From IMG/VR virus record IMGVR_UViG_3300030118_004387, positions 4,779 through 39,827 of that record: a DNA stretch of 35,049 bases; one strand, 5' to 3'. The DNA is from a virus. Of the stretch, positions 5,325-16,719 are shown piece after piece (the stretch's first letter is position 1; every line of letters starts with the position of its first letter). The notes beneath the pieces are model-generated. The model was given only the letters and a program-made list of their open reading frames with translations. It was not told where the DNA came from and did no database searches. The translations under genes were made by a program, and so were the position numbers.

Positions 5325-7019
5325 ATGAATGAAAGACCAGAAGATCATGGAATCAAGCTGAGAAAGTTTGATCATGGAACCCAAAAAGTAAAATGTCCCA
5401 AATGTCAGCCACCGCATAAGATGTCTGACAACCCATTGAGCGTAACAATTAATGAGGAAGGCACAGTATGGTTTTGTCACCATTGTGACTGGAAAGGTAG
5501 TTATTTTACTAACAGTAACAAGATGTATATTCCAAAAGAAAAGGTATATCAAAAACCAGAAGTCCCTAACAGCAATGCCAAAAATACAACCTATCAATAT
5601 TTTAAAAATCGTGGCATTGGGGCTACTGTTGTAGATGAATTCAAAATATTTGAGGACAAAGGTTGGTTTGGGTTCCAGTACTTTGATGAGCATGAGCAAG
5701 TTTTAAATATCAAATATAGAAACAATGGAAAAAACTTTAGGCAAACACAGGGAGCAAAACCTTTTCTGTTTAACTACAACAAAGTAAAAGAAGCTGATGA
5801 AATAGTATTTGTGGAAGGAGAAATGGATGTCTTGAGTTGTGCAGAAATCGGTATGTTAGCTACTACCTTGCCCAATGGTGCACCAAAAGAAGCAAAGTTT
5901 AATGACAAAGATGCTAGATTCAATGCTTTGGAAAACTGTCCCCTTAGTGCAAAAAAAGTTATCCTCTTTACTGATACAGATACCGCAGGTAAAGCCTTAC
6001 ATAAAGAATTGCTACATCGTTTCGGCAAAGATGTTTGTTGGTATGTCAATGTGCCTGATGACTGTAAAGATGCAAACGATGTTTTGGTAAAACATGGAGC
6101 AGCGAAATTAAAGAAAGTCATAGATGAGGCAATACCTTATCCAATTGATGGTCTTTACTCTGCTAACGATTACTATTCACAGATTCAAGATTTGTACGAT
6201 GGGAACTATGAAAAGCCAATTGAAATAGGCATGAAAGGTTTAGATGAAATTTACAAAATAATGACTGGTACTTTTCATTGTATTACTGGCATACCAAATC
6301 ATGGTAAATCTATTTTTTTAGATCAAATACTACTGAACCTAGCTTTAAATCATGATTGGAAGTTTGCAATCTTTTCTCCTGAACACTCAACTTCAATGCA
6401 TATAAGACGATTGATTCAGATGTATTGTCGGAAGCCATTTGATGAAGGCTTTGAAGAAAGACTAGATAAAAAAGAATTAAATCAGGCTCTTGAGTTTATT
6501 CAGAGTCACTTCTACTTCATAGAAACAAGGGACAGTACCCCAACTGTAAACAACATATTAGATATCACAAAATCGTCAATATTTAAGCATGGGATAAATG
6601 GTTTGGTGATTGACCCTTACAACGAAGTTGATGCAAAAAGAGAGGGAAATGCAAGAGAAGATGAGCATATTAGAGATTTCATATCTTTATGTAAAAGGTT
6701 CTCAAGGATTTACGAGATCGTAACATGGGTTGTAGCACATCCTACTAAATTGCCTAAAGGTACTGATGGTGGTTATACCCCACCAACCGCATACGACATA
6801 AGTGGGGCAGCACATTGGCACAATCAGGCTGATGCAGTCCTTACTATTCACAGAGATTTTGATGAAAACACCACAAGTGTAATAACTAGGAAAATCAGAG
6901 AACAAGACCTATATGGCAAGATTGGAGAAGCTAAATTTATGTATAACTTCAAAACAAGGAGCTTTGACCCTTACACAAAAATGGTTGTTGGTGATTGGGA
7001 AGAAAATGTCACTTGGTAA
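5325..7019 (+). CDS. DNA primase-helicase (T7 gp4/Twinkle type)
   Basis: A 564-residue fusion enzyme that primes lagging-strand synthesis and unwinds DNA at the phage fork. The zinc-binding domain has CPKC (24-27) and CHHC (51-54). The TOPRIM primase core shows VEGEMD (163-168) and the acidic TDTDTAG (216-222). The RecA-fold helicase has Walker A GIPNHGKS (322-329), Walker B GLVIDPYNE, and a sensor-like VVAHPTKLPKG. The AGGAG site overlaps the end of the initiator gene. Its last 11 bases overlap the convergent kinase gene. No DNA polymerase is visible in the window, so the phage may rely on the host polymerase or carry one in the missing part. Confidence 0.92.
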   Translation: MNERPEDHGIKLRKFDHGTQKVKCPKCQPPHKMSDNPLSVTINEEGTVWFCHHCDWKGSYFTNSNKMYIPKEKVYQKPEVPNSNAKNTTYQYFKNRGIGATVVDEFKIFEDKGWFGFQYFDEHEQVLNIKYRNNGKNFRQTQGAKPFLFNYNKVKEADEIVFVEGEMDVLSCAEIGMLATTLPNGAPKEAKFNDKDARFNALENCPLSAKKVILFTDTDTAGKALHKELLHRFGKDVCWYVNVPDDCKDANDVLVKHGAAKLKKVIDEAIPYPIDGLYSANDYYSQIQDLYDGNYEKPIEIGMKGLDEIYKIMTGTFHCITGIPNHGKSIFLDQILLNLALNHDWKFAIFSPEHSTSMHIRRLIQMYCRKPFDEGFEERLDKKELNQALEFIQSHFYFIETRDSTPTVNNILDITKSSIFKHGINGLVIDPYNEVDAKREGNAREDEHIRDFISLCKRFSRIYEIVTWVVAHPTKLPKGTDGGYTPPTAYDISGAAHWHNQADAVLTIHRDFDENTTSVITRKIREQDLYGKIGEAKFMYNFKTRSFDPYTKMVVGDWEENVTW

Positions 7020-7539
7020 ATTCAAATAAGTCTTTTGCAAGGCTTTTTGATTCTTCTAAGTCTCTTAAAGAAACCAACTCAATTATATTAGAAAGTTCTT
7101 TATCCTTTTTTATGTTTTGTATTTTCGTGAGTCTGCCTTTCTTGAATTTTTCAGTTTGTTTGTCACCTCTTTGTTCGTGTCTTTTTTCTAATGTTGCAGC
7201 ATCTCCTTCTAAAATTATTATGCGGATATCGTAATCCTGATTTAGAAGTTTTAAGTTATTAGCAGTAAAAAGACGATCACCTTCAAAAACAATGTTCTTA
7301 TCACTCATAGCTACATAAGATTCAAAGTCCTTTTGAACTGCCATAGACAACTTATCTGTGCCTGCAAAGACCTCTCCTAAATCGTATATACCAAGTACGC
7401 TAGTTTCGCTTTTTGTGTCGTGATAACCCCTCAACAAACCCTTTTGAAATTTTTTGTTTGGCTTTAATAAGGACAAATAATTTCGCATAAGAGTAGTTTT
7501 GCCAGAAGCAGGTACACCACCGATTGCCACACATTTCAT
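7009..7539 (-). CDS. 5-hydroxymethyl-dU DNA kinase (P-loop)
   Basis: A 176-residue P-loop kinase predicted to phosphorylate the hydroxymethyl group of 5-hydroxymethyluracil in DNA, activating it for displacement. Walker A is GGVPASGKTT (7-16); the motif VFAGTDKLSMAVQ (57-69) is the one I associate with the phage 5-hmdU DNA kinase family, and a lid-like ATLEKRHEQRGDK follows. It is the last gene of the modification operon and overlaps the transferase upstream by ATGA, so the two are made together, as expected for successive steps. The motif match is from memory; a nucleotide kinase of other specificity is the alternative. Confidence 0.78.
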   Translation of the reverse strand: MKCVAIGGVPASGKTTLMRNYLSLLKPNKKFQKGLLRGYHDTKSETSVLGIYDLGEVFAGTDKLSMAVQKDFESYVAMSDKNIVFEGDRLFTANNLKLLNQDYDIRIIILEGDAATLEKRHEQRGDKQTEKFKKGRLTKIQNIKKDKELSNIIELVSLRDLEESKSLAKDLFEFTK

Positions 7540-8498
7540 AATGTTTTGTAGTTTAAAGTGCCAGTATCTAAAAATACAGAAAATAAATCTTTTCTTATTT
7601 GTTTGCTTGCAGCTAACTTTGGGTGCAGAGTTTCTTCTCTACCATCCCAAAAAACTTGCCAATCAATACCATTCCATTCATCTTGCTCTACTTTCTTTAT
7701 CTCCTCTGCCTGTCTATCTAAATAATATCCCAAATATCTACCATCTCTGTTGCGGAAGATTTTTTTAAAACTACAGAGCAAAGTTTCCATTTGATAAAAA
7801 TTCATATCTATGTTGCTTTCATCTTTTAGCTCTTTTTTTAACCTAGCTGCTTGATGCTCTAAATAAAATATGGTGTTTGAATCAAGTTTCTGGTTGATCA
7901 AGTCTTCATGGCTAAGGGCATACAAAAGACCATTTCTATGTGATTTACTACCACTGTGGTCATTTAATTTAAGATTGTTCGGATAAATAGGCACTCCGAC
8001 ACATTCTTCTAAAGTTTGCAAATAGTACCAAGTAGAATACCTACCAAACTTATGCATATTATTGACTATACTCAGCCAAATATACTCAAAAGGCTTATTC
8101 ATTAGTTTTTTAAATCTTGCTCTTTGTGTACCTTCAGGATTGTCATGCAAAACCCACCTTTTGTAACTAGCATATTGTTGAGGCAAATGCCCCTTATTCC
8201 ATTTTGTGTCAGTTTGATATCTTAGCCTTTTGAAATTTTCATCATTCCACTTCTGCAACCTTGATTGATTGACTAACTCAAAATCAGGAAACTCATTCCA
8301 AATAATCCATGCAGTCGGTAAATGATAAGTTGTCCCATAAATCCAAGCGATCCAATATTTTTGCTCTAAATTATGTTCAAACCTTTTGAATAAGTAATTC
8401 AAAAGCCAAAGCGCAGGATCACAGTCGTGATTTTTTAAAGACCAACCACACCAATCTTTAAAGATTTGCTCACGACTTTGTTTTGTTTTTCCTAACAT
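7536..8498 (-). CDS. Amino acid:DNA transferase (AGPT-pyrophosphorylase family)
   Basis: A 320-residue, all-helical protein of the family called alpha-glutamyl/putrescinyl thymine pyrophosphorylase or amino acid:DNA transferase. Enzymes of this type displace the (pyro)phosphate of activated 5-hydroxymethyluracil in DNA with an amine or amino acid. Family-like motifs are GTTYHLPTAW and WNEFPDF (55-73), YQTDTKWNKGHLP, KFGRYSTWYYLQTL and a C-terminal RNRDGRYLGYYLDRQ. I start it at the ATG at 8498, one base after the acetyltransferase stop; an in-frame ATG at 8555 would overlap that gene and neither has a clear ribosome site. It ends coupled to the kinase. Substrate amino acid cannot be read from sequence. 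Confidence 0.75.
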   Translation of the reverse strand: MLGKTKQSREQIFKDWCGWSLKNHDCDPALWLLNYLFKRFEHNLEQKYWIAWIYGTTYHLPTAWIIWNEFPDFELVNQSRLQKWNDENFKRLRYQTDTKWNKGHLPQQYASYKRWVLHDNPEGTQRARFKKLMNKPFEYIWLSIVNNMHKFGRYSTWYYLQTLEECVGVPIYPNNLKLNDHSGSKSHRNGLLYALSHEDLINQKLDSNTIFYLEHQAARLKKELKDESNIDMNFYQMETLLCSFKKIFRNRDGRYLGYYLDRQAEEIKKVEQDEWNGIDWQVFWDGREETLHPKLAASKQIRKDLFSVFLDTGTLNYKTL

Positions 8499-8499
8499 T

Positions 8500-9012
8500 T
8501 TAGTTATCAAAAACTTTGATGCACCCTCCTCTACCTTTTTTGAAAACTGCTGCATTTATTACAGGGTCTTTTAAATCATATATTCCGTCATGGAACGACT
8601 TGCCACCTATTAAAAACATGGATAACTGACTTTTAGACTTTTGTTCTCCAAGCATTTGAAAGCCAATACTTTCATAAAAAATAACTGCATCAGGTTCAGC
8701 AGAAACTCTAAAATATTTTGCTTTTTGGCTTATAGCGTATAACAAACTATATTCACAGAGTTTTTTGGCTATACCTTGCCTACGATATTTAGCAAAAGTA
8801 TGAAGTAGTTGTAAATTAGCTACTAAAGGTTCTTTTTTTGAGATAGTCGTAATTATTGCTCCGCATAAATTTTTTTTGTGATAAAAACCTACGCAACTAT
8901 TCCAGTATCTACCAAGATTAGCTTTTGAAACAAAAGTATGAGCAAACTTATCTCTTTCATCATCAGTGATTGCTTTTAAAAAATCGCTTTTTTTACACCT
9001 TGATAAACTCAC
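8500..9012 (-). CDS. GNAT-family acetyltransferase
   Basis: A 170-residue N-acyltransferase. The acetyl-CoA loop is RRQGIAKKL, preceded by the strand LQLLHTFAKY, and the C-terminal half has FYESIGFQMLG, the usual GNAT motif B. It appears to begin at GTG 9012, preceded by AAAGG, overlapping the amidoligase by 20 bases; there is no good ATG. Inside an operon for base hypermodification it could acylate a free amine on the thymine side chain, as acyltransferases do in some described thymidine pathways. A small-molecule or protein substrate remains possible. Confidence 0.8.
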   Translation of the reverse strand: MSLSRCKKSDFLKAITDDERDKFAHTFVSKANLGRYWNSCVGFYHKKNLCGAIITTISKKEPLVANLQLLHTFAKYRRQGIAKKLCEYSLLYAISQKAKYFRVSAEPDAVIFYESIGFQMLGEQKSKSQLSMFLIGGKSFHDGIYDLKDPVINAAVFKKGRGGCIKVFDN

Positions 9013-9868
9013 GAGCCTTTTTACCTCTGCTTTTATCGTATTTACTATTTATCCATCCATTATACTCAGCGTAATTCCAGACAAAAGGTGGGAAACTAAA
9101 ATCATAGGATTGAAGTATCTCAAAAACATTTGGACCATCGTTCAAAGCAGCTTCAATAAAAAGCTCAACAAATTTGAATTGATCAGCTATCTCCTTCTCT
9201 TTGACGCTAGATCTAAAACATCTGAATTCAATAGTTTTTGTGTGTTTCAAACAGTAAGTATTAATAGCGTAGCGGAATGGTCTGCCGATTGATACTCCAT
9301 CTTTACCTGCAGCATGCAGTTTTATAAAATCTTCAAAAGAATGAGCCCTAGTCAGTATGTTTTTTATCATATAAGGTGGCATAGGACGACCACCATCATA
9401 TTTCAGATACATTTTAGCTCCTTTAGATTTTTTCATTGGTAAGCCAGCATCATAAAAATTATAAAGGGCATTAATAGTTAGTTCTTGATTGATTCCGATG
9501 TATTTAATTAGCTTTTTCAATCCTTCAATATCTTCAATTAAATTTGGTATATGCACATGGAGATGACCATGATTGACACAAGAGGCACTAGGTGTATTAC
9601 CTGATTGCACAAAAAGTTCATGCAATTCCATAATATTATTTACTTGCTCAGCCCATGTTAAAGTAGGCTTTGTATTTATCTCGCCCCCCATGCAAGGATC
9701 CAAACCAAGAGGATCACAGGCTTTATATTTGTGTGGCTCTTGAATATTCACAATATCTGTTTCAGCGTATTCCCATTTACCCAAGGATTCAGGTATTGAG
9801 ATTCGCCTATCTATATCACCCCATTCAATTTCATAGCCCCAAGTGAAATCTTTTTTATCGTATTTCAT
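8993..9868 (-). CDS. Glutamine-synthetase-like amidoligase
   Basis: A 291-residue member of the amidoligase_2 group, which has the glutamine synthetase fold and joins an amine to a carboxylate at the cost of ATP. The expected metal and nucleotide residues are in place: GYEIEW (11-16), EINTKP (63-68), HGHLHVHIP (100-108) and TIEFRCFR near residue 213. These enzymes typically pair with a class II amidotransferase, and here that partner is the next gene upstream with a four-base overlap. The inferred job is to amidate or extend an amino-acid side chain on a modified base; peptide or cell-wall substrates, proposed for relatives, are the alternative. Confidence 0.83.
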   Translation of the reverse strand: MKYDKKDFTWGYEIEWGDIDRRISIPESLGKWEYAETDIVNIQEPHKYKACDPLGLDPCMGGEINTKPTLTWAEQVNNIMELHELFVQSGNTPSASCVNHGHLHVHIPNLIEDIEGLKKLIKYIGINQELTINALYNFYDAGLPMKKSKGAKMYLKYDGGRPMPPYMIKNILTRAHSFEDFIKLHAAGKDGVSIGRPFRYAINTYCLKHTKTIEFRCFRSSVKEKEIADQFKFVELFIEAALNDGPNVFEILQSYDFSFPPFVWNYAEYNGWINSKYDKSRGKKAREFIKV

Positions 9869-10512
9869 TGTAAGTCCTCGTAAGATTCTCTAATCTTTAC
9901 CACTTCTAAAATATTATTGATTGAACAATAATCATAGCAAGGTTCAGTTTTTGATATATTTTTCAAACTGAGCTTTTTAAGGATGTCTAAGGTAGAACCT
10001 ACTAAAAGTGTATTTTCAGTTTGCGAAAAATACAAAGGTCTCTGCTCGTTTCTGAAAAAGTTTAATGCAGGTTCCTTTTTGTTTGTTAATACTACACAAC
10101 TCATAGAGCCTTCTATCTTCAATGGGTGTATGCCTTTCAGCCAATGTAAAAGAAGAATTTCGCTGTCGCACTTAGAACTAAACTTCATGTTGTACTTAGC
10201 TTCCCACTTGCTCGGATCGCTTTGATCCACAACTCCATTATGTGCTAATGAAGTAGTCCCTTTGTAAACAGGCTGATTGTAAAGTAAGTCTGATGTGCTG
10301 TACCTACAATGAGCTATCAAGTTTTTGGTTTTAAAATCAGGTAAATCAAAAAGGTCAGCAGAATAAGGCACGATTTCATGTTTCAGTTTTCCGTCCTCAA
10401 TCCAACTTAGACCAGTAGCATGTTTGCCCCTTATCATTGATTCAAGGAGTATTTCTTTAACTAAAGATTTATCAATAAAATTTTTAGATTGTAAGCCAAC
10501 AACAGCACACAT
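9865..10512 (-). CDS. Class II glutamine amidotransferase
   Basis: A 215-residue Ntn-fold glutaminase that would release ammonia from glutamine for the amidoligase. The start at ATG 10512 leaves Cys2 as the N-terminal nucleophile once Met is removed (MCAVVG), which decides the start over the preceding in-frame GTG. RGKHATG (28-34), AHCRYST (67-73) and AHNGVV (90-95) match the glutamine-binding and oxyanion-hole motifs of the purF/glmS class. There is no synthase domain attached, so the acceptor must be a separate protein, most simply the adjacent amidoligase. The start overlaps the dioxygenase stop by one base. Confidence 0.88.
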   Translation of the reverse strand: MCAVVGLQSKNFIDKSLVKEILLESMIRGKHATGLSWIEDGKLKHEIVPYSADLFDLPDFKTKNLIAHCRYSTSDLLYNQPVYKGTTSLAHNGVVDQSDPSKWEAKYNMKFSSKCDSEILLLHWLKGIHPLKIEGSMSCVVLTNKKEPALNFFRNEQRPLYFSQTENTLLVGSTLDILKKLSLKNISKTEPCYDYCSINNILEVVKIRESYEDLQ

Positions 10513-11429
10513 CACAGACTCAAACTGTCGCCTCTGTTTCTGGTTTGTGCTTTGAACAATTCTTCTTCAGCAGACTGACAATGATGCATTTTTTCTCTGT
10601 AATAACAGACAATTGACACTCTTTCATATGCTAGTTTGGCTTTTATTTCTGTATTAGCGTGATATTCATGCACATTGAAAAAACAGACATCTCCGCTTCT
10701 CACATCAAAAGCGACTCGGTATCTAGGTATAACAGTATATCCACCTTCGTATTTCCCTGCCTCTAATACAGCTAAGTTACCTAAACCCTCTTTGTAATCT
10801 CCTGCGTCCACATGCAAGGCAGTTCTAAAGTTTTTGTTCACTGTGATGGTCGTAAACACAGTATCTTTAATCAAGAAGTCTGAATTTGTCTGATCTGCCA
10901 TGATTTTTTGAGCTTCATATCTTTCAGGGCATGATTCTTTAAAAAGCTCGTTTATTTTATGTATGTAAGGGTAGGCTTTTTTGAACTTATTAAAGTTTTT
11001 TTCATACCATGCAGTCTGTCTGCAAAAGGGAAATCTAGCATTTCTATCAAAAAAACCAACAATGCCTGAGTTTACTGTATTAGCTCTTGAAGTATTACTG
11101 AGTGTTCCGTCCTTTTTAATGCCTCTAAATCTTATTTTACTTAAATCGCCAATTTCCCAATCGTTTTGAGTTTCATTACTGATTATACCGCCTGCACTAC
11201 CACGATTGTTTGTGGGAGCTGCTGCATCTCTCAAAGCTACATAAGCATCTTTACAAAGGTTTGTAGGTATTTTGTTTTTCCTAAAGAAGAATAAAGGCTC
11301 TCCATTTTCACCATATGCATCACAATCATCTCTGATTACAACATCATAATCAGATTCATCAATCCATTCTCCTTTCCTTTTGGCTACTTCTTCTTTTGTA
11401 TAATGTGGTTCTAAATTAAAAACCTTCAT
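10512..11429 (-). CDS. TET/JBP-type 2-oxoglutarate/Fe(II) dioxygenase
   Basis: A 305-residue enzyme of the TET/JBP family, which hydroxylates the methyl group of thymine or 5-methylcytosine in DNA. The iron ligands read as H206-x-D208 in RTALHVDAGD and H257 in NVHEYHANT; R270 in YERVSIV would bind 2-oxoglutarate. The phrase FTTITVNKN just ahead of the HxD, and the GGYTVIP strand, are characteristic of phage members. I use ATG 11429 rather than an upstream TTG. No cytosine methyltransferase lies nearby, while a 5-hmdU kinase and its transferase do, so thymine to 5-hydroxymethyluracil is the favoured reaction. It is coupled to the ParB-like gene by a 14-base overlap. Confidence 0.82.
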   Translation of the reverse strand: MKVFNLEPHYTKEEVAKRKGEWIDESDYDVVIRDDCDAYGENGEPLFFFRKNKIPTNLCKDAYVALRDAAAPTNNRGSAGGIISNETQNDWEIGDLSKIRFRGIKKDGTLSNTSRANTVNSGIVGFFDRNARFPFCRQTAWYEKNFNKFKKAYPYIHKINELFKESCPERYEAQKIMADQTNSDFLIKDTVFTTITVNKNFRTALHVDAGDYKEGLGNLAVLEAGKYEGGYTVIPRYRVAFDVRSGDVCFFNVHEYHANTEIKAKLAYERVSIVCYYREKMHHCQSAEEELFKAQTRNRGDSLSL

Positions 11430-12042
11430 TTTTCGCTGTCTTTTCAACTGCTTCGTAAACAGTCTCAGTTAAATTTTCTTTTGACCATTTTTCTCTAAGG
11501 AAAGCTACCATGTCTTGAAACTTTGGCTCAGTTTCTTGATTCAAAAATATATTGACCATTCTCACATTACTGGTCTGTAAGTCATCAAATTGTGAGGTGT
11601 CTATATCTGTTACAATCTCTTCTGGCTCTGTGAACTCAATCATATCAGAGGTCATTTTCTCAATTTCTTCAAACGAAAACCCTGTTTGATCTAGGTCATA
11701 ATTTTGATCAGCAAGTTTGCCAAACTCCTCGGCAAGAAGTTCATTATCCCACTCTGAGAAATCTTGGCTTTTGTTATCCATAATCCTGAAAGCAGTTTTT
11801 TGAGCCTCACTAAGTCCTTCTGCTTTGTGCACAGGTACTTGTTCAAACCCTAACAACTTAGCAGCCTTGAGTCTCGTATGTCCTGCTAGGATTACCATAT
11901 CTTCATCAACGATTATAGGAACTCGCCAACCAACCTCTTTTATACTCATAGCTACTTTTTCAATAGATTCTTTATTGTTTCTTGGATTGTTGGGGTATTC
12001 TTGCAAATCCTCAACCTTCATCATTTTTGTGTTGTATGCCAT
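11416..12042 (-). CDS. ParB-like nuclease-domain protein
   Basis: A 208-residue protein with an N-terminal ParB/Srx fold: LQEYPNNPRNN (13-23), IIVDEDMVILAGHTRLKAA (about 43-61, with GHTR at 54-57) and a helical segment with MDNKSQD. The ParB fold can bind CTP or act as an ATP-dependent kinase or nuclease. It lacks the DNA-binding second domain of partition proteins and there is no ParA, so plasmid-style partition is unlikely. ParB-like proteins recur beside base-modification genes in phages, and here it is directly upstream of and coupled to the dioxygenase. Its exact step (targeting, phosphorylation or nicking) is open. Confidence 0.85.
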   Translation of the reverse strand: MAYNTKMMKVEDLQEYPNNPRNNKESIEKVAMSIKEVGWRVPIIVDEDMVILAGHTRLKAAKLLGFEQVPVHKAEGLSEAQKTAFRIMDNKSQDFSEWDNELLAEEFGKLADQNYDLDQTGFSFEEIEKMTSDMIEFTEPEEIVTDIDTSQFDDLQTSNVRMVNIFLNQETEPKFQDMVAFLREKWSKENLTETVYEAVEKTAKNEGF

Positions 12043-15590: not shown

Positions 15591-15833
15591 ATGAAAAATC
15601 TAAAACTAATACTAGAAAACCCTAATACCCAAACTGAGATAGTTCTTGGTTTCGTTGCTGATGAGGACGAAGCTAACGAAGTTGTTGATGCCATTGAGGA
15701 AAAGTGGTTTTCAGTAATTGATTCTAACCTTGATAAGCCAGTTGACATGCTAACTGATGACCCTGTTTTACTTAACTGGGAAGGTAGCGACATCTACTAT
15801 ATCAATTCTTATAACGAACACTTTTACCTTTAA
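15591..15833 (+). CDS. Hypothetical acidic protein, 80 residues
   Basis: The start follows AAGGAG. The protein is strongly acidic (ADEDEANEVVDAIEEK and several Asp pairs) and ends in aromatic residues. Acidic small proteins next to antirestriction genes are sometimes DNA mimics, but no specific family is recognised and this is speculation. It is the first gene after the third promoter copy. Confidence 0.6.
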   Translation: MKNLKLILENPNTQTEIVLGFVADEDEANEVVDAIEEKWFSVIDSNLDKPVDMLTDDPVLLNWEGSDIYYINSYNEHFYL

Positions 15834-15843
15834 GGAGCATAAA

Positions 15844-16719
15844 ATGAAGAAAGACGAAGTATTCAAAAGGATAAGAGAAAAAATCTTAGAGCTAATGAAG
15901 AAAGAGGGTACAGACTGGACTAAGTCTTGGATTGCTACTGCAACTCCTCTTAACTTCTTAAGCAAAAAAGAGTACAGAGGCATCAATAATTTTTGGCTCT
16001 CTGTACAGGGCTTTGACTCAAATGAGTGGGGTACTTTCAAACAATGGCAGTCTAAAGGCTACCGCATCAAGAAAGGTTCTTCCGCTACTCCGATAATCTT
16101 TTCTGAGATGAGAGAAAAAACTTTAGACAGATTATCCGATGACGAAAAAGCTAGATACGAAGAAACAGGTGTAATGCCTAAGTTTTGGTTACTAAGAAGC
16201 TACAATGTTTTTAACGCTGACCAGATAGAGGCTTATGTAAGTGAAAATACTAAGGTTGATCATAAAGAAACTATCAGTTCTAAAGACTTAGAGGCAGTAA
16301 TAAGGTTTATTGCTGCCACTAAAGCAGAGATCAAACACGAAGGCGATAGAGCTTACTATCATCAAATATTTGATGAAATAACTATGCCTGCTAAAGATAA
16401 ATTCTTTTCTGATGAAGATTACTACTCTGTCTTATTGCATGAGCTAACTCACTGGACTATGCACGAAGATAGAACCAACAGACAAGATAAAGACCTAAGT
16501 TATGCACAAGAAGAATTAGTAGCAGAGCTTGGTTCGGCTTTTCTTTGCAGATTGTTGAATGTTTCAAAAACAGTTAGACCAGATCACGCTAAGTATCTCA
16601 ATAACTGGATTGAAGCGATTGAGGATAGCGAGAAAGCAATGGTTCAAGCGTTTTCGGATGCACAAAAGGCGGTTGATTACTTAACCAAACTACAAACTAA
16701 AATGGAGAAGGCTGCATAA
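15844..16719 (+). CDS. ArdC-like antirestriction protein
   Basis: A 291-residue protein with the two-domain ArdC layout: an N-terminal ssDNA-binding domain (WLSVQGFDSNEWGTFKQW, KGSSATPIIF) and a C-terminal zincin-like metallopeptidase with LHELTHW, the HExxH-type zinc site, and the downstream AQEELVAELGSAFLC supplying the third ligand. ArdC proteins of plasmids protect incoming DNA from restriction. The ATG at 15844 after AAGGAGC is chosen. Its TAA stop lies in the loop of a terminator-like hairpin. Confidence 0.85.
   Translation: MKKDEVFKRIREKILELMKKEGTDWTKSWIATATPLNFLSKKEYRGINNFWLSVQGFDSNEWGTFKQWQSKGYRIKKGSSATPIIFSEMREKTLDRLSDDEKARYEETGVMPKFWLLRSYNVFNADQIEAYVSENTKVDHKETISSKDLEAVIRFIAATKAEIKHEGDRAYYHQIFDEITMPAKDKFFSDEDYYSVLLHELTHWTMHEDRTNRQDKDLSYAQEELVAELGSAFLCRLLNVSKTVRPDHAKYLNNWIEAIEDSEKAMVQAFSDAQKAVDYLTKLQTKMEKAA

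Follow-up and report, generated by a model that had tools for sequence, protein, structure and literature searches.

Characterised enzymes of the ADDT type (amino acid:DNA transferases) are thought to take amino acids or amines, and we know of none for which the use of ammonia has been shown. Iyer et al. reportedly predicted, in 2013, phage TET/JBP operons and TET-ADDT systems, and in operons of that type, such as that of Mycobacterium phage Hangman, ParB, TET, ADDT and kinase genes lie together as they do in the locus described here; genes for GAT (class II glutamine amidotransferase), AMDL (glutamine-synthetase-fold amidoligase) and GNAT were absent from the 7.6 kb of Hangman searched. For phages ViI, M6 and phiW-14, both the 5hmdU kinase and the hypermodified thymidines are well documented (PMC6449724, PMC7653180). 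Their thymidine hypermodification resembles the pathway proposed below in its kinase activation of 5hmdU, its ADDT-family transferase and its acyl-type tailoring, and ADDT relatives were present in Vi01 and its kin. It differs in the origin of 5hmdU, which is the nucleotide pool in those phages whereas it would be the action of TET on DNA in the present one, and in the nucleophile, for which we propose ammonia; around the Vi01 ADDT, no gene for GAT or AMDL was detected. The phiEco32/LUZ24 module (Iyer et al. 2009, cited in PMC10580990) likewise has glutamine-synthetase (GS)-fold ligases beside a class II GATase. Its amidoligases belong to another subfamily, however, and it includes ATP-grasp and COOH-NH2 ligases, whereas neither ATP-grasp nor COOH-NH2_lig (PF14395) was found in the eight operon proteins scanned here. 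The LUZ24 GATase is related to GAT (93.5 bits), the amidoligase similarity is at superfamily level only, and a search of 30 kb of LUZ24 detected no ADDT, kinase or TET.

The window, that is, the whole stretch of 35,049 nucleotides that was analysed, spans positions 4779-39827 of a 39.8-kb virus record (IMGVR_UViG_3300030118_004387), apparently from a phage with a siphovirus-like tail, as tape measure, distal tail and J-like fibre genes lie within it. The operon runs on the minus strand from 12250 to 7009, its genes touching or overlapping, in the order 68-aa protein, ParB-N, TET/JBP dioxygenase, GAT, AMDL, GNAT, ADDT and P-loop kinase (Table 1); a ParB-N gene lies 5' of TET in many relatives too. 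The sequence-only reading had described an amidotransferase with an N-terminal Cys and no synthase domain, followed by a GS-like amidoligase and an acetyltransferase, all placed between a dioxygenase and a kinase/transferase pair. Our annotation agreed with this in both order and position: the three open reading frames fill exactly 10512-8500, with TET upstream and ADDT and the P-loop kinase downstream. The 5' end of AMDL overlaps the GAT stop, and GNAT overlaps AMDL by 20 bases. Elsewhere in the window, an anti-restriction protein (15757-16719, plus strand; phrog_7245, 4e-70) represents a second likely anti-restriction defence of the same phage.

Table 1. Operon features and the exchanged segment, in window coordinates
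Feature	Position	Strand	Basis
ParB-N domain protein, first large gene of the operon	11416..12042	-	PF02195 1.9e-8
TET/JBP 2-oxoglutarate dioxygenase, upstream of GAT	10512..11447	-	PF12851 7.2e-25
GAT, stand-alone glutaminase, Cys2	9865..10512	-	PF13522 5.9e-10
AMDL, carboxylate-amine ligase candidate	8993..9868	-	AF2 model; YbdK/GS/GCS structure matches
GNAT acetyltransferase, GTG start	8500..9012	-	PF13673 3.7e-14, over cut-off
ADDT	7536..8498	-	PF18724 1.4e-21, over cut-off
P-loop kinase	7009..7539	-	AAA_33 6.7e-5, Ploopntkinase3 0.0013, both under cut-off
Segment exchanged relative to sister phage L005	7790..10090		identity profile

The GAT protein (start ATG 10512, alternative GTG 10515; end 9865; about 215 aa; N-terminus M-C-A-V-V-G) stops after its glutaminase domain and is thus a bare glutaminase (PF13522 over cut-off), in which Cys2, Arg70, Asn92-Gly93 and Asp116 were conserved at 99-100% among 133 relatives. 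GAT proteins frequently end in DLQ. AMDL itself fell under the cut-off of 22 for PF12224 (Amidoligase_2; E 0.036, 14.4 bits), and a 26% identical homologue in locus L010 exceeded it (6e-8, 33.3 bits). An AlphaFold model built from 44 sequences (pLDDT 95.7), which replaced an earlier, mediocre model from five (pLDDT 75.7), gives AMDL a glutamine synthetase superfamily fold with GS catalytic motifs: all 50 structure entries listed belonged to that superfamily, the best match among them being YbdK (Z 10.9, rmsd 4.5, 217 residues), the Foldseek E value was only 0.007, and the GS-type motifs ExE, GGExN, H102, R199 and TxExR were invariant in the family alignment, from which two rows from the named phage collection had been left out. 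Fold and catalytic motifs are thus common to AMDL and the YbdK/gamma-glutamylcysteine synthetase family, whereas identity over the structural alignment is only about 13% and the context of AMDL is DNA base modification. ADDT probably starts at ATG 8498, just past the GNAT stop, rather than at 8555, where the longest open reading frame begins, to judge from an alignment of starts. The P-loop kinase showed no match to PF18748 or PF18723 and scored 18.8 bits with Ploopntkinase3 against a cut-off of 27, and its relative in L010 matched PF18751 over cut-off (1.3e-10); we presume it, on this weak assignment, to be a 5-hydroxymethyluracil DNA kinase. NCBIfam did not help to name AMDL, ADDT or TET.

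Scans of IMG/VR with AMDL, ADDT and GAT alignments yielded hundreds of matches, 255 of them with the AMDL alignment, while AMDL alone as query in the close-relative search returned one partial locus; the loci were reduced to 162 non-redundant ones and typed with profiles built for this analysis. The order ParB-TET-GAT-AMDL-GNAT-ADDT-kinase recurred in about 60 non-redundant viral contigs. Frequent orders were TET-GAT-AMDL-GNAT-ADDT-kinase and TET-GAT-GNAT2-ADDT-kinase; rarer ones were TET-GAT-ADDT-kinase with neither AMDL nor GNAT (L115, L136, L224), TET-GAT-(TAGT)-AMDL-LMWP-ADDT-kinase, and, in L015, TET, an ADDT-like protein, a flavin oxidoreductase and the kinase, where the ADDT-like protein and the oxidoreductase (8013-11024) substitute for the whole GAT-AMDL-GNAT-ADDT block. 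Several further variants were observed. AMDL occurred with a TET-associated glycosyltransferase and a low-molecular-weight phosphatase-like protein (LMWP), and no GNAT, in L010 (5827-8007), L213 and L210. Many AMDL operons carried an extra ParB-like gene, with no Pfam match, between GNAT and ADDT (37 members, e.g. L058:7405-8946). A 527-aa open frame in L196 (3477-5060), adjoined by GAT, encodes an ADDT domain and a GNAT2-type acetyltransferase as one fusion protein. Two AMDL genes were present in each of the operons L064 (5466-6335, 7125-7997) and L100 (8001-8879, 8789-9826). In Pelagibacter phage HTVC112P (L022:6378-8600) ParB-TET is followed by an FkbM methyltransferase, with no ADDT or kinase there, and the TET carries the annotation DnaJ/SNF2.

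In the collection of named phages no complete operon turned up, GNAT had zero matches there, and AMDL matched only phage Simon and Vibrio phage 2.275.O, the L010 query adding one weak match; among bacterial genomes a single 3.6-kb contig, possibly phage, was matched. The phage Simon cluster (L027:6864-15096, in an unannotated record), by its content one for thymidine hypermodification, comprises an ADDT-like protein and a flavin oxidoreductase, followed by AMDL, and also LMWP, HMUDK_HMUD1-like (under cut-off) and HMUDK_hel domains, a thymidylate-synthase-family gene and an HD phosphohydrolase, and GAT was not found anywhere in the 61-kb record. The ADDT-like protein and the flavin oxidoreductase stand, in both L015 and phage Simon, where GAT and ADDT would; a flavin-dependent lyase step in thymidine hypermodification, and combinatorial tailoring that includes acetyltransferases, were reportedly described by Lee et al. 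in 2022. The relative in Vibrio phage 2.275.O (L028:9890-15098), 25% identical to AMDL, lies beside QueF, QueC, FolE and a GATase in a 7-deazaguanine cluster, likewise a setting of base modification. The QueF product preQ1 is an aminomethyl-bearing base that occurs in phage DNA (PMC6884629).

A natural exchange was evident from comparison with the sister phage L005, whose identity to the window dropped from about 95% to 40-78% between positions of about 10,090 and 7,790 and returned to about 93% beyond. The exchanged segment takes in AMDL and GNAT, together with the C-terminus of GAT and roughly three quarters of ADDT. In L005 one different GNAT occupies the place of AMDL and GNAT, and ParB, TET and the kinase are retained along with the N-terminal part of GAT and the ADDT C-terminus. 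AMDL was not found elsewhere in its 37.7-kb record.

Gene association was then counted at anchored loci, with only those having 3 kb on both sides of the anchor gene admitted. Every ADDT-anchored locus had GAT, TET and kinase (25/25 each) and 12/25 had AMDL; GAT-anchored loci had ADDT in 18/18 and AMDL in 10/18. All 24 AMDL-anchored loci contained GAT, ADDT and kinase, so that the grouping of AMDL with these genes is not a matter of chance. Along the ADDT tree, a quick build with long outer branches and a top-80 sampling biased to close relatives, GAT presence changed twice; inside the clade that bears GAT, AMDL underwent 16 changes or more. The 78-row tree set comprised 45 rows with AMDL and GNAT, 20 with GNAT2 only, 7 with AMDL and LMWP, 3 with AMDL and GNAT2 and 3 with none; GNAT without AMDL occurred in 0 cases, and GNAT2 mostly stood in for the AMDL-GNAT pair. 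Eight independent supported pairs were consistent with joint movement of AMDL and GNAT (median p 0.016). Co-divergence across 47 operons, calculated from pairwise distances that are non-independent and open to distortion by recombination, gave partial correlations of 0.59 [0.46, 0.70] for GAT-ADDT, a value reached in 0/1000 permutations, 0.50 for TET-kinase, 0.35 for AMDL-GNAT, 0.06 [-0.06, 0.20] for GAT-AMDL and -0.07 for AMDL-ADDT, with bootstrap intervals and permutation concordant. We regard these pairwise statistics as the principal finding. GAT adjoined AMDL in all 47 of these operons without matching co-divergence, and gene order was rejected as sole proof of partnership. AMDL distances also tracked those of TET (partial r 0.42; 47 operons), which the mechanism proposed below does not predict.

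These genes very likely serve to tailor a DNA base, and the cassette probably remodels thymines of the phage's own DNA, thymine being the base that we infer. That the three genes act in one pathway with TET, ADDT and the kinase, as had been proposed, was supported by the order recurring in about 60 contigs, by the cassette swap and by the ADDT-GNAT fusion. The enzymes most likely split into GAT with ADDT, and AMDL with GNAT as a separate swappable finishing unit; the former pairing is drawn because GAT stays with ADDT where AMDL is absent and co-diverges with it. TET, presumed to act on thymine, would hydroxylate it to 5-hydroxymethyluracil, the hydroxyl of which the kinase would phosphorylate. 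GAT would hydrolyse glutamine and hand the ammonia to ADDT, which would swap the phosphate for ammonia and leave 5-aminomethyl-deoxyuridine in the DNA. AMDL would then couple the aminomethyl amine, at the expense of ATP, to a carboxylic acid that is probably an amino acid, and GNAT would acylate the free amine of the group so added; where a sister operon lacks AMDL, direct acylation of the aminomethyl group would fall to a different GNAT. The steady core of TET-kinase and GAT-ADDT carries exchangeable caps, and a shared amine intermediate therefore fits, 5-aminomethyl-dU being the simplest; an amine as the AMDL substrate is suggested by the phage Simon cluster and by the position of AMDL beside QueF in Vibrio phage 2.275.O. 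The fusion in L196 suggests that the acetyltransferase acts on a DNA-linked product. Taken with all its chemical steps, the use of ammonia by ADDT and the choice of thymine, this two-pair pathway stands at an even balance of probability. That GAT makes ADDT an ammonia-dependent DNA aminating enzyme, and that the GS-fold ligase extends the amine by an amino-acyl or short peptide-like chain, we put forward tentatively, at somewhat less than even probability; on this reading the two-ligase operons (L064, L100) would add two units.

Several points count against the two-pair pathway: no ADDT-type enzyme is known to us to use ammonia, the kinase is weakly assigned, AMDL correlates with TET, GAT is present at every AMDL-anchored locus, and LUZ24 pairs a related GATase with amidoligases. 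The last two, together with the adjacency of GAT and AMDL throughout the co-divergence set, favour a different assignment, in which ADDT would install an amino acid, GAT would supply ammonia to AMDL, AMDL would amidate the side-chain carboxylate and GNAT would acylate the amine. We consider this unlikely, given that 13/25 ADDT-anchored loci have GAT without AMDL, that GAT-AMDL co-divergence is absent and that phage Simon has AMDL without GAT. The sequence-only reading had made GAT the ammonia source for AMDL; that wiring was not supported by these findings or by the co-divergence of GAT with ADDT, whereas its assignment of the tailoring set to the same base was supported. GS-fold ligases such as GCS and YbdK have small-molecule substrates, and YbdK is the closest likeness of AMDL among the structure entries listed, so AMDL might instead act on free metabolites, making an amino-acid conjugate that ADDT would install on DNA and that GNAT would cap before or after. 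The ADDT lineage does not track AMDL, however (at least 16 AMDL changes; partial r -0.07), and the fused acetyltransferase suggests action on a DNA-linked product, which makes such a route distinctly improbable.

As to the base, Burke et al. are said to have found, in 2021, that some phage TET enzymes act in cytosine hypermodification, and on this precedent TET could oxidise 5-methylcytosine and the set could modify 5-hydroxymethylcytosine. We regard this as very unlikely, and thymine is favoured over 5-methylcytosine, because a C5-cytosine methyltransferase was absent from all 12 related records searched, own record included, although fragmentary records or methylation by the host could account for such an absence; moreover, the phage Simon relatives have 5hmdU kinase domains and a gene of the thymidylate synthase family as neighbours. 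A peptidoglycan or metabolite module of the phiEco32/LUZ24 type, placed among the base-modification genes but unrelated to them, would have a parallel in known phage amidoligase and GATase modules of proposed cell-wall role (PMC10580990, PMC6256558), but is exceedingly improbable and was rejected, as the LUZ24 amidoligases, of another subfamily, scored only 7.6 and 3.3 bits against the profile of the AMDL family, AMDL linkage to ADDT and kinase is almost perfect, and the ATP-grasp and COOH-NH2_lig domains are absent from the proteins scanned. Occurrence of the genes without the kinase/transferase pair, which by the sequence-only reading would count against it, was seen only for distant superfamily cousins, the amidoligases and GATase of LUZ24; the closest true exception is the AMDL relative in Vibrio phage 2.275.O, again in a base-modification setting.

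The operon is common in uncultured phages in the collections searched, and the DNA base that it yields has probably not been described before, because the complete operon was not found in named phage records. Among the papers searched, none was found to bring amidoligase, TET and phage thymidine together. If the two-pair wiring is true, glutamine-derived ammonia would act on DNA itself and a GS-fold ligase would work on a DNA base, neither of which is, to our knowledge, established. The natural on/off swaps of AMDL-GNAT in near-identical phages provide ready comparisons for enzymology and for testing how side chains overcome restriction.
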